From assembly GCF_020035535.1 (NCBI RefSeq), contig NZ_CP083349.1, forward strand, positions 2,666,001-2,730,000: a stretch of 64,000 nucleotides of DNA, in the 5' to 3' direction. Position 1 is the stretch's first letter, and the number at the start of each line of letters is the position of its first letter. Shown here piece after piece: positions 3,655 to 17,361 of this stretch. Source of the DNA: Ensifer adhaerens. GTDB taxonomy: Bacteria > Pseudomonadota > Alphaproteobacteria > Rhizobiales > Rhizobiaceae. The position numbers and the translations under genes are program-made. The notes under the pieces are model-generated. The model did not search any database, was not told where the DNA came from, and saw only the letters and a list, made by a program, of their open reading frames with translations.

Positions 3655-3686
3655 AAAAAAGCCGCCTCGACATCTCCGGGCGGCTT
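3655..3686 (-). terminator. trp attenuator terminator
   Basis: On the minus strand GCCGCC (3684-3679) pairs with GGCGGC (3666-3661), with flanking A-T pairs, and runs into six T residues (3660-3655). It lies between the trpL stop and the trpE(G) start. A competing antiterminator is visible: GCGGC at 3720-3716, just after the trpL stop, can pair with GCCGC at 3684-3680, the 5' arm of the terminator. This is the classical ribosome-controlled attenuation arrangement. Confidence 0.9.
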
Positions 3687-3721
3687 CATCTCTCAATCAC
3701 GCATGACTGGTCAAGGCCGCT

Positions 3722-3766
3722 TCAGCGAGCCCACCACCAGATCGAAATGTTGCGTGCGTTTTCCAT
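3722..3766 (-). CDS. trpL: trp leader peptide
   Basis: This is a 14-codon frame reading MENARNISIWWWAR followed by TGA. Three consecutive Trp codons near the end are the hallmark of a trp leader peptide: ribosome stalling there under tryptophan shortage would favour the antiterminator. The S. meliloti leader peptide (peTrpL) has the same length and the same ISIWWWAR ending. In that species the attenuated transcript, rnTrpL, acts in trans as an sRNA, and the peptide has its own role in antibiotic-related regulation. The start codon lies 8 bases after a -10 hexamer, so the message is probably leaderless. Only the N-terminal residues differ from the S. meliloti peptide as I recall it. Confidence 0.93.
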   Translation of the reverse strand: MENARNISIWWWAR

Positions 3767-10444: not shown

Positions 10445-11668
10445 TTATCGGGCGAGAATGTCACGCATTTCGACGATGTTGGAGCGGACCCTCAGCGTAT
10501 AGAAGCCCATCGTCGCCAGATGCGTCGGCATGATCCAGCCGGCTTCCTCACCGTTGGAGATGATCCATGGCTGGATGCGGAGTGCTGCGCGCAGCTGCTT
10601 GATCGTTTCCGTCCAGATCGGCAACAGACCACGCTGGGCGACGACATTGTCGAAGTCCGCACCGGCCGCCGAAAGGATGCCGTAGTAGCCGTAGAGCTGG
10701 CCATAGGCGAACCAGAAGCGATCGTCGGCGCGCGTGTCGAACCAGCCGCCATTGTGGTTTTCCGAGCGCTCGCGCAGGATCGCCGAGGTGTTGCCGAGGT
10801 CGTTTGCAACCCGGTCGAGGAACTCGACGAGGTTGTCGGAACGGCCGTCGAAGATAGCCTCACACTTGCTGAGCGAGGTGTTGAAGGAACGCAGGTCCTT
10901 CATCGCCGCGCGATAGAAGCTCGGCGTCGGGGTCTTCGGGCCGAACGGGTTGAGCCCGAAGTACCAGGTTTCCTCGTCGAACTGCATGTTGCCGCGCGCC
11001 CGCTGCAGGTCGTTGTTGATGCCTGAGGTGCCGCGCACGCGACCGAGCGAATCCACGAGTTCCACCGAGGTGCGGCGGATCGCCTGGTTGATGCCGCGCT
11101 GGAACGACGCCTTGTTGTCGAGCCAGGGCGTGTCGTCCCAGTCGAGCCCGAAGAAGCCGAGCTTGTAGAGCAGCATCGACGAGATCCAGGCGTTCTCGTT
11201 GACGTTGAAGTCGATGAGGTCGGCCGTGACATCGACGATTGCCGAGGTCTGGCAGACCGTGCCGGCCGGCAGTTGCACGACGGCCAGCGCTTCCGGCGTC
11301 GATTCCAGCGGCTGGGCGCCCGTGGAGGCAAGGTTGTTGGCCGTGCCGCCGGTCGTCGATTGTCCCGTAGTTGCGCCCGGCCCGCTCATCGGCGAACCGG
11401 CAGGCACCTTGCGCTCGGACAGCTTGTAGCGATCGACATAGTCTTCGCTGAAGTTTGTCCAGGCCTGGGTCTGCCAGATGAAATAGCCATAGAACAGGAT
11501 CAGGCCGAGTAGGATGATGCCGATCGGTCCTTTGATGATCCAGCTGCGCTGCCGATACCAGTTGCCGATCGCGACGAAGGGCCACAGCAGCCAGGCAACG
11601 GCGAGCCCGATGCCGCGGCCGATCGCGGTAAAGACACGCTGGAAAAACGCAACGATCGGATCGAACAT
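10445..11668 (-). CDS. DUF2333 membrane-anchored protein (operon gene 5)
   Basis: This 407-residue protein has a hydrophobic helix near residues 46-64 (IKGPIGIILLGLILFYGYFIW) and a second amphipathic stretch before it (IGLAVAWLLWPFVAIG). A Thr/Gly-rich linker (about 92-115) leads to a large C-terminal domain that matches the DUF2333 family (LLYKLGFFGLDWDDTPWLDNKASFQRG, WYFGLNPFGPKTPTPSFYRAA). The C-terminal domain is probably periplasmic. It is the last gene of a tight operon, 3 bases after the preceding stop. DUF2333 has no established function. It could anchor the complex formed by the other operon products to the membrane; that is inference. Confidence 0.85.
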   Translation of the reverse strand: MFDPIVAFFQRVFTAIGRGIGLAVAWLLWPFVAIGNWYRQRSWIIKGPIGIILLGLILFYGYFIWQTQAWTNFSEDYVDRYKLSERKVPAGSPMSGPGATTGQSTTGGTANNLASTGAQPLESTPEALAVVQLPAGTVCQTSAIVDVTADLIDFNVNENAWISSMLLYKLGFFGLDWDDTPWLDNKASFQRGINQAIRRTSVELVDSLGRVRGTSGINNDLQRARGNMQFDEETWYFGLNPFGPKTPTPSFYRAAMKDLRSFNTSLSKCEAIFDGRSDNLVEFLDRVANDLGNTSAILRERSENHNGGWFDTRADDRFWFAYGQLYGYYGILSAAGADFDNVVAQRGLLPIWTETIKQLRAALRIQPWIISNGEEAGWIMPTHLATMGFYTLRVRSNIVEMRDILAR

Positions 11669-11671
11669 GTC

Positions 11672-12961
11672 CTATTCCTCTCTGAGGCCGTAAAGCTTGT
11701 GGCGGAAAGCCGCCTTGTCTTTGAGATATGAACCCGTCAGCGTCGCCACAACATAGGCCTTGAAGCTTTCGCTATAACGCTCGTAAGCATCATAGAAGCC
11801 CTGCTTGTCGAAGACGAAGCGGGAGACGAAATCGCGCGGGACGAGCTGGGATATCAGCCGGTTGACGAGCCATTGATCGGGATGGGCGGGGGCTGCGCGA
11901 ACCAGCAGGAAGCGGTTCGCCGGCGCCACGTCCTGCATCTTGATCGTGCCGGTCGCAGAGACGGTGCGGATCATTTCCTGCAGAAACGGATAGGTTCCGT
12001 CCCCGGCGACGATGGCCGCGTTGCGGTGCATCCAGGTCTGCAGCCAGATACGGTCGGCGTTGGCAAGGTCGGCCGTCGGGTCGCTCTCGTTGATCAGCCC
12101 GCGCACGACCATGTCGGCGCGATGCTGGTAGAGCCCGGAGTCCTCGACCCAGGAGGCCTGCGGCAGCTGCAACCGCTTGGTCGAGGCGAGGAAATCGTAG
12201 ATGCGGGCGTAATCGTTGATGGCGATGTAGCTTACCTGCCAGGGCCGCGACCGGCGGAAGCCGGGGACCGAAGGATCGCAGATGACGGTCGTCGTCTTGC
12301 CGTCGAGAAAGATGTAGACCCCACCGAAATGGTTGGCCCAGAAGGCTTCATGGCGGAAAACGAGCTGATCCGGCACCAGCGCGTTCTGCCGGATGTCGCC
12401 GGTGAGCTTGGCAAGCTCGACCATGCGGTTCAGCATCTCGTCGTCGGCCCAGGCGGTCGGCACCTTCTTCAGCCGGTCGACCAGGCCGCGCAGCTCCGCC
12501 GCCTTGCCAAGCATGTCCTCGGCCGAAAGCACCCGGAAGCGCACCTCGTTGATCGACAGCAGATCGTCGATATCGTCGACGATCGAAACCGAATCCTCGA
12601 TCTCGCCGTAGAGCGCATCCTTGATCGTGACGGCATTGATCGCGCGGCTGTTGGCGTTGAAGAACTCGTGCATCAGCGCGGCGGTGTTGGAAAAGCTCGT
12701 ATGCACGACCGGCAGCTCCGCCTGCTCCGGCGTCATGATGATGAAGCGGCGGTTCACCCGGTTCGGATCGAGATAGTCGCGGTCGCCAAGTTCCTCGGCG
12801 ATCTCGGGCGAAAACCCGGTCATGTCGATGCTGAACTGTGTCAGCGCGGTCGGTCGCAGGCCGAAACCTTCGAGCGCCTTGTTGTAGCGCGCGATCAGAT
12901 GCGGCTCCGAAATATCGAGCAGCCGTCCATAGATCAATTCGGCTTCAAGCAGGCGTTTCAT
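11672..12961 (-). CDS. Conserved protein of unknown function (operon gene 4)
   Basis: I do not recognise a characterised family in this 429-residue protein. It begins MKRLLEAELIYGRLLDISEPHLIARYNKALEGFG and has no signal peptide or membrane helix. Notable segments are FIIMTPEQAELPVVHTSFSNTAALMHEFFNANSRAI, FWANHFGGVYIFLDGKTTTVICDP and FVSRFVFDKQGFYDAYERYSESFKAYVVATLTGSYL. It starts 19 bases after the AAA+ gene stop and ends 3 bases before the DUF2333 start, so it is certainly part of the operon. The composition and codon use match its neighbours, with no sign of transfer. An adaptor or substrate-recognition partner for the ATPase is a reasonable guess only. Confidence 0.85.
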   Translation of the reverse strand: MKRLLEAELIYGRLLDISEPHLIARYNKALEGFGLRPTALTQFSIDMTGFSPEIAEELGDRDYLDPNRVNRRFIIMTPEQAELPVVHTSFSNTAALMHEFFNANSRAINAVTIKDALYGEIEDSVSIVDDIDDLLSINEVRFRVLSAEDMLGKAAELRGLVDRLKKVPTAWADDEMLNRMVELAKLTGDIRQNALVPDQLVFRHEAFWANHFGGVYIFLDGKTTTVICDPSVPGFRRSRPWQVSYIAINDYARIYDFLASTKRLQLPQASWVEDSGLYQHRADMVVRGLINESDPTADLANADRIWLQTWMHRNAAIVAGDGTYPFLQEMIRTVSATGTIKMQDVAPANRFLLVRAAPAHPDQWLVNRLISQLVPRDFVSRFVFDKQGFYDAYERYSESFKAYVVATLTGSYLKDKAAFRHKLYGLREE

Positions 12962-12980
12962 CGATCAGTTCTTCCCACCA

Positions 12981-14897
12981 TCACCCCTGCCACCGGCCGT
13001 CGCGTTTCATGGCCTCGATCTCGCGGATCGCCTTTTCGCGCTGGCGCTCGCGGCGGATGATGTCGGTGACGGCGGCATCGTCCGACTTGTCGGTGTAGCG
13101 GAACTCGCTGTCGGCGTACCGGTTGATCTCCTGCAACACCATCTCGATGGTGATCGGGCCGCGCAGCGCCTCGATCATCGCTTTCTTCTCGTCGTAGCCC
13201 TTGTGCATGAAGGAGCCGGCATCCTTGAACCAGTCATCCGGCAGCTCGACGTCCATTGCTCTCAGTTTGATCGCATCGGTGATGTTCTTGATTGCCCGGC
13301 CGGTAAAGCGGGGCTCCGCCTCCTTGATCATGTGCAGATAGGCACCGACATCGGCGAGCGAGGCAATCGCCCCCTTCTCCTTCTCGTAGCGCTCCCAGAC
13401 GGCAACGAGGCCATCCTCTTTCGGCCGCGCATGCTCGGCGTAGGACTGAGCAACCGCGCGCTTGATCTCCTGCCCCTCGAAAAGCTGGTGCTCGCCGAGC
13501 GGGATCTTGTGGTTCTTGCCGACGAGCAGCGCAAAGATGTCGATATAGTCGTCCTCGGTCTGCGGCCCGTCGACCAGCCAGCGTGCACCGGCGCGTTGGC
13601 GCAGCGCATCGTCGACATTTTCCGGATAGTTCGAGAACATGCCGAAGGTGCAGTTGCCGCGCACCACAGTGGACGCACCGGCAAAGCTCTCCATCAGCAC
13701 CGCCGTCACCTCGTGCTGGCCGGCAGACGCGCGATCGTCGGAACGTTTCGCCGCCACCTGGTCGACATCGTCGATCGTGCCGAAGCCGATCGCCCGCGGA
13801 TTGATGACGTTGTTGACGAACTCCTTGCAGTTCTGGCCGGACTTGCCCTGATAGGAGGAGATCTGGTCGACGCCGAAGTTTTCGTAGTGGAAGGCGTAGC
13901 CGGCGATCTCGCAATAGTCGTTGAGCATGCCGGCGAGCATCTGGATCAGGATCGTCTTGCCGGTGCCCGGCATGCCGTCGCCAATAAAGGTGAAGAGGAA
14001 GCCGCCAAGCTCGACGAACGGGTTCATCTGCCGGTCGAAGTCGTAGGCCATCAGCATCTTGGCAAGCTTCAGCGCCTGGTACTTGGCGATGTGGTTGCCG
14101 ATGATCTCCTCGGGCTTCTTGAAAGTCATGACCAGCGGCTTGCGCTTCTGGCCGGGTGCCACGTCGAAACCGTTCAGTGTGAAATCATCCTGGTCGAGCC
14201 GGATATGCACGTTCTCGAAGCTCTGCAGGCCGGTGAAGCGTGCCTTGCGCGCGATCAGCCCCTCGATCGCCACACGCGAGAAGGCGCGTGCCCGGGCGGT
14301 CAGCGCCAGATCATCGGGTGCACCCGCGATGCCGCTGTCGAGCGCCGCCACGAGGCTCTTCAGCGCATCCTGTGGCGTATCGAATAGAAAGTCGGGCTCG
14401 ACCGCATCGTCGACCGGCTCGCCCTCGCCGGCAAGCGTCGCGCCGAGATAGGCGGCAAGCGTGAAAGCGGCGACGTAAGCGGACGCCGAAAGCAGCGCCT
14501 TGAACTGGGTCGCCTCGTCTCCGCCAAGCGGCGACGTCGCGTTCCTCGCCTGCAATTGCTCGAGGCTCGTCTGTCGGGCGAGGACGTCGGCAACGGCCAG
14601 CGCCACCTGGATGCCGCGGCGCGTGCGGTAAAGCACCGCATGCTGGGCCGGCGACAACATCGGGTCACCGTGGCGCACCGCCTGGATCGTCTTGGTCAGT
14701 TCCACCTCGCGCGTGCGGCGCTGGCCGCCGGTCGAAACCGTGGACACGAATCGGCGACCGGTACCTGCAAGCGAGGTGCCGGCCGAGCCCTCGTCCCGCT
14801 CCAGGATGATGAGCTTCGTCACCAGCCCCTGCGCCACCGACTGATGCCTGGCGATGTCGTCCTCGTGCAGCGTCGTCAGCCCCGTACTGAGTGTCAT
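12981..14897 (-). CDS. AAA+ ATPase (operon gene 3)
   Basis: This 638-residue protein has an N-terminal part of about 300 residues without a recognisable domain, then one AAA+ module. Walker A is GDGMPGTGKT near 306-315. The Walker B position is GFGTIDDVD near 371-379, with the acidic pair DD. A sensor-1 type Asn follows (FGMFSNYPENVDD), then a probable arginine finger (LRQRAGARW). The hydrophobic Ala-rich stretch at about 132-158 could be a membrane-associating helix. The ATG at 14897 has GAGG seven bases upstream and lies 2 bases after the upstream stop; a TTG two codons earlier overlaps that stop and is an alternative. The fold suggests remodelling of a partner, probably another operon product. 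Confidence 0.88.
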   Translation of the reverse strand: MTLSTGLTTLHEDDIARHQSVAQGLVTKLIILERDEGSAGTSLAGTGRRFVSTVSTGGQRRTREVELTKTIQAVRHGDPMLSPAQHAVLYRTRRGIQVALAVADVLARQTSLEQLQARNATSPLGGDEATQFKALLSASAYVAAFTLAAYLGATLAGEGEPVDDAVEPDFLFDTPQDALKSLVAALDSGIAGAPDDLALTARARAFSRVAIEGLIARKARFTGLQSFENVHIRLDQDDFTLNGFDVAPGQKRKPLVMTFKKPEEIIGNHIAKYQALKLAKMLMAYDFDRQMNPFVELGGFLFTFIGDGMPGTGKTILIQMLAGMLNDYCEIAGYAFHYENFGVDQISSYQGKSGQNCKEFVNNVINPRAIGFGTIDDVDQVAAKRSDDRASAGQHEVTAVLMESFAGASTVVRGNCTFGMFSNYPENVDDALRQRAGARWLVDGPQTEDDYIDIFALLVGKNHKIPLGEHQLFEGQEIKRAVAQSYAEHARPKEDGLVAVWERYEKEKGAIASLADVGAYLHMIKEAEPRFTGRAIKNITDAIKLRAMDVELPDDWFKDAGSFMHKGYDEKKAMIEALRGPITIEMVLQEINRYADSEFRYTDKSDDAAVTDIIRRERQREKAIREIEAMKRDGRWQG

Positions 14898-14899
14898 CG

Positions 14900-16048
14900 T
14901 CAAACCTCGCTCACGACCTGGTTGCCGGAAATGACGTGGACCTTGTAGTCGCCGAACACCTGTTCCACCTCACCCGCCGCATAGAGCGCCTGATAGGCGT
15001 CGTGCGGCACCAGCGCATGCTTCTCATAGGAGGACACACCCATGCGCGTCGCTTCCAGATTGGCGGTATCGATGTGGAACTCCTCCTGCGCCGGCGTCGT
15101 CGACCAGAAGCCGCGTTTGGCCGGACGTTCCGATTTCGAGAAGACCTCCTGCACCGTCCAGGTCAAAAGCCAGGCGTTCTCGGTCTTGCGTACCTTCGAG
15201 AGGATATCGTTGATGCGCGCATTGTTCTCGGTTATCCCGGCCGAGTAGAACGGCCCGAGCACGATGCGCCGCAGCTGCTTCGGGTGCAACTCGTCGAAAT
15301 CCTTGTCGAGATTGGTGGCGATCGTCACCGGCGTCAGCGAATAGCTGCTGTTCTTGGAGGCAAAGTCGTCGAAGCGGCTGGCAAGCTCGGGATTGAGCAG
15401 GCCGCCGACCGGCAGGGGGATCTCCACCTGCGGATTGAGCTTGCCGTCGTCGGTCACCAGCATCTCGACGATCTTTTCCGACGAATCCTCGATCGTTGCC
15501 ATGTAGACCATCGGCAACGTGCTGGCGCCATCAAAGGCGCCCCAGTTGACCACGTAATAGGGCCGCATCGTCTTCGAATTGACCGCAACGCGGATGGTCT
15601 CCGGCAGGATGAAGGGCGAAAAGATGTCACCCTTGCCGATCTGCTCCAGATAGAGCCGCTCGGCCATGCGCGCCTGCAAAGCCTCGGGAAAAGCCTTCTG
15701 CCTCAGGATGAAATCGACCATTTCATCGCGCAGCGCATCGGCCGAGGGAATGTCGGCGAGGCGCTTGGCTGCGGTCTGGCGATCGTTTTCCAGCTCCAGC
15801 ACGTTCTGGAACACCGGAAAGCCGCTTTCGGCGCGCGAAATCCGGAACTGGTCGACAAAGCCGATCCTGTTTTCCCAGCAGTCGATCGATGCCTTCAGCC
15901 GCCCGAGATAGGGTACGATCACCTCACCGACGACGGTGTTGCGATAGAGCGGCGAGTTGCGATCGCCGAGAAAGAGTTCGAGCCCGGCGAGCGCCGCGTG
16001 GATAGACGCGAAATATTGTGCGACAGCGGATGAAGCCGCGACTTTCAT
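14900..16048 (-). CDS. Conserved protein of unknown function (operon gene 2)
   Basis: I do not recognise a family for this 382-residue soluble protein. It opens MKVAASSAVAQYFASIHAALAGLELFLGDRNSPLYRNTV, mostly helical by composition, with DRQTAAKRLADIPSADALRDEMVDFILRQ later on. A more beta-rich C-terminal half contains YYVVNWGAFDGASTLPMVYMATIEDSSE and RRIVLGPFYSAGITENN. There is no signal peptide, membrane segment or nucleotide-binding motif. Its stop is 2 bases from the AAA+ start, so translation is coupled. Coupled neighbours of AAA+ proteins are often substrates or adaptors, and nothing more specific can be supported. Confidence 0.85.
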   Translation of the reverse strand: MKVAASSAVAQYFASIHAALAGLELFLGDRNSPLYRNTVVGEVIVPYLGRLKASIDCWENRIGFVDQFRISRAESGFPVFQNVLELENDRQTAAKRLADIPSADALRDEMVDFILRQKAFPEALQARMAERLYLEQIGKGDIFSPFILPETIRVAVNSKTMRPYYVVNWGAFDGASTLPMVYMATIEDSSEKIVEMLVTDDGKLNPQVEIPLPVGGLLNPELASRFDDFASKNSSYSLTPVTIATNLDKDFDELHPKQLRRIVLGPFYSAGITENNARINDILSKVRKTENAWLLTWTVQEVFSKSERPAKRGFWSTTPAQEEFHIDTANLEATRMGVSSYEKHALVPHDAYQALYAAGEVEQVFGDYKVHVISGNQVVSEV

Positions 16049-16106
16049 GCAAATCCCCGTGGCGCGTGCCAGACGGCAAACTCGGTTCGGATCATGCGCC
16101 TGCCGA

Positions 16107-17195
16107 TCACTGCTTCACGTAGTTGGCAGTGTTGTGCTTGTCCATGACAGCCTGGAAGCGGCGGGCAAAAGCGTCGTCCGCCAGCTTCTTGCGGCGCTGG
16201 ATATCCTGTGTCGAAAGCATGTTCTTTTCATGCATTTCGAGGAGATCGCCGATGTGGCGCTGCGCTGCGGCGCCGATGCCGGCCATCGTCTCTTCGGCCG
16301 CGGTGTCGACCTGGCTGCCGAGCGTGTTGATCTTGTGGGCGACATCCTGCTGGGCGGCGGTCTTCAGCGAATCTTCCAGCGCCTTGTAGAGCACGATGCG
16401 CTGCTCGGTATCGATCGTCAGCTTGTTGATCAGCGTGTTCTGCGCCGCGATCTGGTTGTTGAGCGAATCGACGAAGGTCTGGAACATCGAGGTGTAGCGC
16501 TCGAGCGTCTGGCTCTCGGCAAGCAGCTCCTGCTCCTTGGCCTGCTTCTCATTGTATTCGGTCGCAAGCGCCGAGCGCTCGCCTTCGAGCTCGGTGCGGA
16601 CCTTCTGCTCGGTCGAGGCGGCGATGCGGTTTTCGATGTCGAGCAGCAGCGGGTTCAGCTCCTCGATCCGCTTCTGCACCTCTTCAAGGTTCGCCATCGT
16701 GCCCTTGCGGCGCTCGATTACCTGGATCAGGCTCTGCTCGGAGGTCTTGTAGCGCTGGTCGAGGATCGACTTCTGTTCCTTGAGGATGCCGACGATCATG
16801 TCGGACTTCGACAAGAGCTCCTGCAGATTGCCGGCAAGCGACATGTTGCGCACGCGGTCGGTGCGCATGCGCTGCATCTTCTGCTTGGAGAAGATGCCGA
16901 TGAACTTCTCGTAGCCGGTATAGTTCTTCATGCTCTCGAATTCCGAGCCGAAGACGTTGGTCGCATCCTCAAGCCCGATGATCAGGTCGGCGATGTTGGC
17001 TTCCATCACCTTCTGCTGGTTGATTACGTCCTGGATGCGGGCGTTCTCGATGTCGAAGTTGACGTCGCCAAGCTTGGTCTCGGCCTTGGCGAACTGCTCC
17101 AGCACGACGCTCGATTGTTCGAGCTTGCCGCGCATCTGGTCGACGACGCCCTTCGTCTTCTCGATCTCCGCGTCAAAGTTCTGAAGAGTCGCCAT
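16107..17195 (-). CDS. Long coiled-coil protein, distantly TelA-like (operon gene 1)
   Basis: This 362-residue protein has almost no Pro or Cys and a strong heptad-like pattern through most of its length. Examples are VVDQMRGKLEQSSVVLEQFAKAETKLG, ILKEQKSILDQRYKTSEQSLIQVIERRKG and KQAKEQELLAESQTLERY. The C-terminal half (TIDTEQRIVLYKALEDSLKTAAQQ, then AAEETMAGIGAAAQRHIGDLL) recalls the architecture of TelA/KlaA-type toxic-anion-resistance proteins: a long helical protein with a basic patch (FSKQKMQRMRTDRVR). Sequence identity to that family is not obvious, so I treat the link as weak. AGGGGCAGGAC precedes the ATG. It is the first gene of the operon and probably its structural, filament- or scaffold-like member. 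Confidence 0.82.
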   Translation of the reverse strand: MATLQNFDAEIEKTKGVVDQMRGKLEQSSVVLEQFAKAETKLGDVNFDIENARIQDVINQQKVMEANIADLIIGLEDATNVFGSEFESMKNYTGYEKFIGIFSKQKMQRMRTDRVRNMSLAGNLQELLSKSDMIVGILKEQKSILDQRYKTSEQSLIQVIERRKGTMANLEEVQKRIEELNPLLLDIENRIAASTEQKVRTELEGERSALATEYNEKQAKEQELLAESQTLERYTSMFQTFVDSLNNQIAAQNTLINKLTIDTEQRIVLYKALEDSLKTAAQQDVAHKINTLGSQVDTAAEETMAGIGAAAQRHIGDLLEMHEKNMLSTQDIQRRKKLADDAFARRFQAVMDKHNTANYVKQ

Positions 17196-17361
17196 GTCCT
17201 GCCCCTCGATCCACCGTGGCGCGATCCGCCAGCTCAGCCAAATTATTCAGCCTTCGATTGCAGTTATATAAAGGGTGTTTATGGACAGAGAACAAGTCTG
17301 CAGCCGCGGCTTTTTTCGATCAAGCGTTGCAGCGAAGTGCTTGAGATATTGAAGGCATTGC

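Follow-up and report, generated by a model that had tools for sequence, protein, structure and literature searches.

Gene Content of the Locus

A 64,000-nucleotide (nt) stretch of the Ensifer adhaerens contig NZ_CP083349.1 (RefSeq assembly GCF_020035535.1, positions 2,666,001 to 2,730,000), hereafter called the window, carries on its minus strand five closely spaced genes, designated A to E, that code for a coiled-coil protein, an AAA+ ATPase (C), two other proteins (B and D) and a membrane protein (E). A preliminary description of this DNA had proposed an undescribed five-gene AAA+ operon whose products look like components of a remodelling machine. All five open reading frames (ORFs) are present within positions 10445-17195, separated by the claimed gaps of 58, 2, 19 and 3 nt (A-B, B-C, C-D and D-E, respectively), and their layout is as follows (aa, amino acids):

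16107..17195, minus strand: gene A, coiled-coil protein, 362 aa; no family above the Pfam cut-off
14900..16048, minus strand: gene B, soluble protein, 382 aa; no Pfam family
12981..14897, minus strand: gene C, AAA+ ATPase (PF00004), 638 aa
11672..12961, minus strand: gene D, DUF6638 protein (PF20343), 429 aa
10445..11668, minus strand: gene E, DUF2333 protein (PF10095), 407 aa
11474..11623, minus strand: hydrophobic segments of E, at residues 16-34 and 47-65, with Kyte-Doolittle maxima of 1.71 and 1.93 over 19 residues

Gene C starts at the ATG at 14897, and the mechanically called ORF of 640 aa begins upstream of it, at a TTG. Hydropathy analysis detected no hydrophobic segment in A, B, C or D at the threshold used, and two in E, which are located near its N-terminus and are followed by a large domain. 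The characterization of the individual products given earlier stood for B, which matches no Pfam family above the cut-off, for C, whose first ~300 residues match no Pfam model, and for E, which scores 68.5 bits for DUF2333 (cut-off 22) over two stretches. It had to be amended for D, which had been listed as unrecognised and scores 255.5 bits for DUF6638 (cut-off 27); the Vibrio D scores 199.1 bits.

The genome has a single match each for A and C, and a single DUF2333 gene. Comparison with four relatives indicates purifying selection on all five genes (ratio of nonsynonymous to synonymous substitutions, dN/dS, 0.02-0.18). Because of these low dN/dS values and the collinearity of A-B-C-D in every C-bearing locus retrieved (below), the set is more than a chance arrangement, and A-B-C-D with an exchangeable membrane gene is a real, conserved and uncharacterised AAA+ set. 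In the open-licence literature of PubMed Central (PMC), DUF6638 is named in no paper, and no description of the A-E set turned up.

A Conserved Four-Gene Core with an Exchangeable Membrane Gene

Searches for relatives of C gave at least 519 stretches of genome contigs encoding them, and the 80 best of these were retained, their titles pointing mostly to Rhizobiaceae and related families; together with five regions from plasmid records and 20 regions from further genomes, retrieved with wide flanks, they make up 105 loci. As these were chosen via C, they cannot reveal A, B or D without it, and near-identical strains are included. Gene presence was judged by homology searches, and the ends of four short loci (L004-L007) are missing. 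All 105 loci carry A-B-C-D collinear and on one strand, with A in first position. The carriers belong to Rhizobiaceae and their kin, Rhodobacterales, Halomonas-like bacteria and Vibrio, and homologues of D bear the names of Rhodobacterales genera and of Halomonas/Vreelandella. Occurrence is sparse: C is present in 26 of the 398 genomes searched from the window's phylum and in 5 of 289 sampled evenly across the window's class, and 203 genomes from the class to which one gammaproteobacterial carrier belongs yielded a single case. Genes with no assigned function thus keep the same order in scattered lineages of alpha- and gammaproteobacteria, nitrogen-fixing symbionts among them.

The position after D is more variable. 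In 86 of the 105 loci a same-strand DUF2333 gene occupies it, at a distance of -2 to 200 nt (median 4), and in 16 a DUF1523 gene does so instead (-4 to 353 nt; family identity confirmed by Pfam in three examples). Within the 398 genomes of the phylum, DUF2333 occurs in 98 and DUF1523 in 36; the 26 genomes with C divide into 11 with DUF2333 only, all of the window's family, and 15 with DUF1523 only. Both partners have two hydrophobic segments by hydropathy, and profile comparison gave only 0.8% for homology between the two families. Either of two unrelated families can therefore occupy the membrane position after D. The proposal of a five-gene unit, found together elsewhere, holds for A-B-C-D in all 105 loci but not for the fifth gene, since DUF2333 is an independent family that shares only 11 of its 98 genomes with C. 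The conserved unit is the four-gene core, its membrane gene is exchangeable, and the swap places two uncharacterised membrane families in a shared setting.

Fourteen of the 16 DUF1523 loci also encode a protein of ~88 aa; one example has two hydrophobic segments, and another has no Pfam match above the cut-off. Its gene directly precedes DUF1523 in Rhodobacterales-type loci (e.g., L122:6257-6523 and L212:8280-8543) and is also found in 7 of 13 DUF1523 loci taken from outside the operon. Among 20 DUF2333 regions read outside the operon, 19 have none of A, B, C or D nearby and one has a variant of A (A', see below). Some of the neighbours there are presumably Nfu- or copper-chaperone-like proteins. 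In two gammaproteobacteria of one family (L184 and L185), a PspA gene lies ~0.7 and 1.5 kb from DUF2333 on the same strand.

Plasmid pRlX5 of Rhizobium leguminosarum TP16 (L010) carries A-B-C-D and the A motif described below, with neither DUF2333 nor DUF1523 in the locus, and is possibly a mobile copy of the core. No relative of C turned up among phages or viral contigs at the sensitivity of the searches, and a phage-borne system is unsupported.

Gene A and the Joint Loss of a 22-Residue Stretch with the Motor

The product of A is 37-57% identical to seven diverse homologues, including that of Vibrio. Towards its C-terminus lies a short stretch that is the proposed site of docking or remodelling:

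16314..16379, minus strand: residues 273-294 of A, SLKTAxQQxxAHxIN region (motif, conservation, gap in A')

This window ranks 11th of 341 in conservation (22-residue windows, nine diverse sequences), and the motif SL[KR]TA.QQ..AH.[IL]N..G is present in 102 of 102 A proteins from C-bearing loci and the window (a length filter had removed four of the 106 sequences).

Homologues of A also occur where C was not detected, and these are called A'. Thirty genomes were searched, comprising that of the window and 29 without detected C; A was found in the former and, among the 29, in four, each of them one of the Rhizobiaceae with DUF2333. In the genus to which one of these four belongs, all 65 genomes gave an A' match and none a C match; the C search had no positive within that genus, but its query did recover C from 11 genomes of the family. 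The A' matches listed for the genus all end at position 269-279 of the 361-position model. A' loci were read in 33 distinct genomes (36 loci; 32 genomes of one genus and one of another). In all of them DUF2333 lies 60-238 nt downstream of A' on the same strand, and B, C and D were not found within any A' locus fetched.

The 33 A' proteins compared were those of the 65-genome genus for which loci were returned, three from the 30-genome search and one from the other genus. A and A' are clearly homologous (hhalign 100% over 330 columns), but the motif is absent from all 33. In 32 of them the alignment gap coincides exactly with residues 273-294 of the window A, and in the other-genus protein a gap likewise of 22 residues lies at 284-305. 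Identity to the window A over residues 273-294 is 0.68 for non-rhizobial A versus 0.00 for A', whereas the flanking segments differ far less: 0.40 versus 0.31 (residues 1-273), 0.39 versus 0.28 (295-316) and 0.44 versus 0.43 (317-348). The simplest reading, and a suggestive one, is that the motor or its adaptors make use of the stretch, which becomes dispensable once they are gone. Through the joint loss of motor and stretch, an otherwise anonymous operon offers a candidate motor and substrate that can be tested directly.

A resemblance of the operon to tellurite modules, suggested loosely in the preliminary description, was not borne out at the sequence level. Like TelA (PF05816), A is long, rich in coiled coil and soluble, but homology was not detectable: at an E-value of up to 1, A has no TelA, PspA or Snf7 match in Pfam, and hhalign gives A and A' probabilities of 0.5-3.6 against TelA and 1.9-5.3 against PspA, compared with 100 among relatives of A. 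Snf7 was checked by Pfam, with no separate profile comparison. A separate TelA gene exists in some C-bearing genomes (G022, G329, G330, G334 and G348), while TelA genes were not found in 26 close relatives. Passages of Ravi et al. 2024 (PMC11237479) describe classical AAA+ genes adjacent to bacterial PspA and Snf7 genes, and the A-B-C-D set is not mentioned in those passages. That adjacency, and the same general picture of a coiled-coil protein, an AAA+ ATPase and a membrane protein, would fit A being a divergent member of the TelA or PspA/ESCRT-III families, within a known stress module that includes some further genes; given the Pfam and hhalign results, we consider this very improbable.

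The AAA+ Motor

C scores 42.3 bits for AAA (PF00004; cut-off 21.2) over residues 310-440 of the 640-aa ORF, and in NCBIfam it matches AAA models only, far below cut-off. Its AAA core contains the following elements, counted in the 106 C proteins of the loci and the window:

13953..13982, minus strand: Walker A, GDGMPGTGKT, residues 306-315 (GDGxPGTGKT in 106/106)
13839..13859, minus strand: candidate pore loop 1, SSYQGKS, residues 347-353, with invariant Y349 ([SD][SE]YQGKS in 106/106)
13758..13787, minus strand: Walker B, GFGTIDDVDQ, residues 371-380 (from alignment with solved AAA proteins)
13581..13646, minus strand: sensor-1 Asn423 and arginines 433, 435 and 439, second region of homology (pattern in 103/106)

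The assignment of YQGKS as pore loop 1 is a prediction from its position. The Walker B Asp-Asp pair is present in 105 of 106 proteins, that of locus L045 being outside the pattern, so that the second acidic residue is Asp instead of the usual Glu. The sensor-1 and arginine residues are invariant in a 10-sequence alignment. The closest solved sequences are AFG2/VCP, FtsH/i-AAA and proteasome-activating ATPases (best E-values 4.7e-5 and 5.1e-5), with which C has in common the Walker A, a pore-loop-like motif, sensor-1 and the arginines. The likeness lies mostly in the AAA core, however, and C has no protease domain or known substrate-binding domain.

Genes B and D

B consists of a helical N-terminal domain and a beta domain. 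PDB sequence searches with alignments of A, B and D gave nothing convincing, and no solved-fold match was obtained with the AlphaFold2 model of D (pLDDT 87.5). Homology between B and D is not supported (hhalign 0.1-0.2%). Among the VIA-align rows shown for B, 33 of 50 are urate oxidase, FolB, GTP cyclohydrolase, 6-pyruvoyl-tetrahydropterin synthase or QueF-like proteins, which have the tunnelling fold in common. Residues 162-308 of the B model form two strands, then helices, then two further strands, and short additional helices lie at 191-197 and 277-283; the two results hint weakly that B may have this fold. It could then be a pterin- or purine-binding-like protein through which a nucleotide or pterin metabolite gates the machine, an idea we regard as improbable.

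Gene B is probably SMc02733 of Sinorhizobium meliloti 1021, as judged by gene order and by shmR being SMc02726 (PMC8343143). According to PMC3687685, a ChvI DNA-binding screen recovered a 166-bp intragenic fragment of SMc02733.

A Proposed Remodelling Machine

The best-supported proposal, which we put forward tentatively, is that C, as an AAA+ remodeller of the pore-loop type, acts on residues 273-294 of A. A-B-C-D would constitute a cytosolic, ATP-driven machine in which C forms an AAA+ ring, recognises A at the SLKTAxQQxxAHxIN stretch and pulls or reshapes it, with B and D as putative obligatory adaptors linking motor and substrate. A would act beside an inner-membrane protein whose large domain is probably periplasmic; DUF2333 would take this role here and DUF1523 in Rhodobacterales and Halomonas-like bacteria, each anchoring the assembly in the inner membrane and linking it to the periplasm. 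The machine would probably assemble or disassemble an A-based structure at the inner membrane upon an envelope condition. Gene content and order, conservation, the AAA+ motifs, the swap of the membrane gene and the joint absence of B, C, D and the A stretch are directly observed, whereas the physical contacts, ring, filament formation, membrane site, topology and process served that such a machine implies are inferred.

Several observations weigh against this proposal. The divergence of A' is not confined to residues 273-294, as identity to the window A is also low over residues 1-50 (0.16) and over the last 14 residues (0.05), although non-rhizobial A is weakly conserved there too (0.24 and 0.27). 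The co-loss is suggestive rather than proof because one genus underlies it and, both gaps being of 22 residues, the loss may have been a single event. The lost stretch might contact B or D, or serve self-assembly of A. The Asp in place of Glu in Walker B may mean that ATP hydrolysis by C is weak. A membrane gene of either family is lacking in three of the 105 C loci, which lie on one R. leguminosarum plasmid and two plasmids of Vibrio, and C is missing from 87 of the 98 genomes with DUF2333 and from 21 of the 36 with DUF1523.

The same co-loss fits a different role for C, as a general unfoldase or chaperone for other envelope proteins, with A a passive scaffold to which the 22-residue stretch tethers it. 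The persistence of A with DUF2333 after the loss of C is what a membrane scaffold could show, yet the neighbourhoods, which were read in part and unsystematically, revealed no other gene shared by Rhizobiaceae, Rhodobacterales and Vibrio that would point to a different substrate. We regard this alternative as somewhat unlikely, and prefer A as the substrate of C.

In outline, a machine of this kind may work like ESCRT-III/Vps4, with a coiled-coil target, an AAA+ motor and a membrane site. As in the ESCRT-III/Vps4 and PspA/Snf7 systems, a coiled-coil gene stands beside a classical-type AAA+ gene whose product has an aromatic pore-loop-like motif, and a short stretch towards the C-terminus of A was lost with the motor, as expected of a motor-binding motif, presumably comparable to the MIM motifs of ESCRT-III. 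The differences are that A is not detectably PspA and has no Snf7 match in Pfam, and that C departs from Vps4 in its ~300-residue N-terminal region without a Pfam match and in its Walker B Asp. We know of no counterpart of B or D in those systems. That the operon is an independently evolved bacterial counterpart of ESCRT-III/Vps4, in which a motor and two adaptors of unrecognised fold build up and take apart an unrelated coiled-coil polymer at the inner membrane by way of the 22-residue stretch, with DUF2333 or DUF1523 as an exchangeable, periplasm-sensing transmembrane receptor, is unlikely.

The C-D Junction and Other Features

The C-D junction accepts insertions. Gaps of more than 300 nt occur there in 49 of the 105 loci, compared with 10 at A-B and 3 at B-C. 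Inserts of varied content in relatives include:

L013:12018-12422, C-D insert
L119:6959-7978, C-D insert
L121:10103-10813, C-D insert

Among the inserted genes are those for a DUF559 endonuclease-like protein (Pfam, one example tested), an AbiJ_NTD4 protein (Pfam) and a DUF4145/HEPN-like protein (below cut-off), together with an annotated insertion sequence (IS) transposase, small membrane proteins, repeat-like sequence and what we take to be RelE/HigA-like toxin-antitoxin genes.

The DUF559 and AbiJ_NTD4 inserts, and a weak PADLOC match of C to TRIP13 (E-value 2.8e-6), would suit an anti-phage or stress defence system in which C is a TRIP13/Pch2-like sensor or remodeller and the effectors between C and D vary. 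However, the C-D gap is shorter than 200 nt in 44 of the 105 loci and in the window, where the junction (12962-12980) has no insert, and the inserts differ between related species, some being the transposase, toxin-antitoxin-like or repeat sequences. The TRIP13 match falls in the generic AAA core; PADLOC gave no match for A, B, D or E, and for C it gave only the AAA-containing TRIP13 and IetA models, in the core. The failure to find relatives of C among phages and viral contigs, at the sensitivity used, also argues against defence, for which we see only a slim prospect.

A conserved element precedes A:

17256-17302, minus strand: CTTG...CCTTTATATAACTGCAATC, upstream of A (19 of 106 upstream regions, up to four substitutions)

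Its carriers are mostly Ensifer/Sinorhizobium by title, and it was found in none of the 106 regions on the opposite strand. It is likely to be a promoter and possibly includes an operator. The strict EcfG stress-sigma motif was found upstream of A in 0 of 106 regions, and two looser stress-sigma patterns in 11 and 49 of 106 on the sense strand versus 3 and 16 on the opposite strand. Elsewhere in the window, the small RNA RcsR1 (RF02552, 96.9 bits; 3655-3750, minus strand) is the sole Rfam match above the gathering score.

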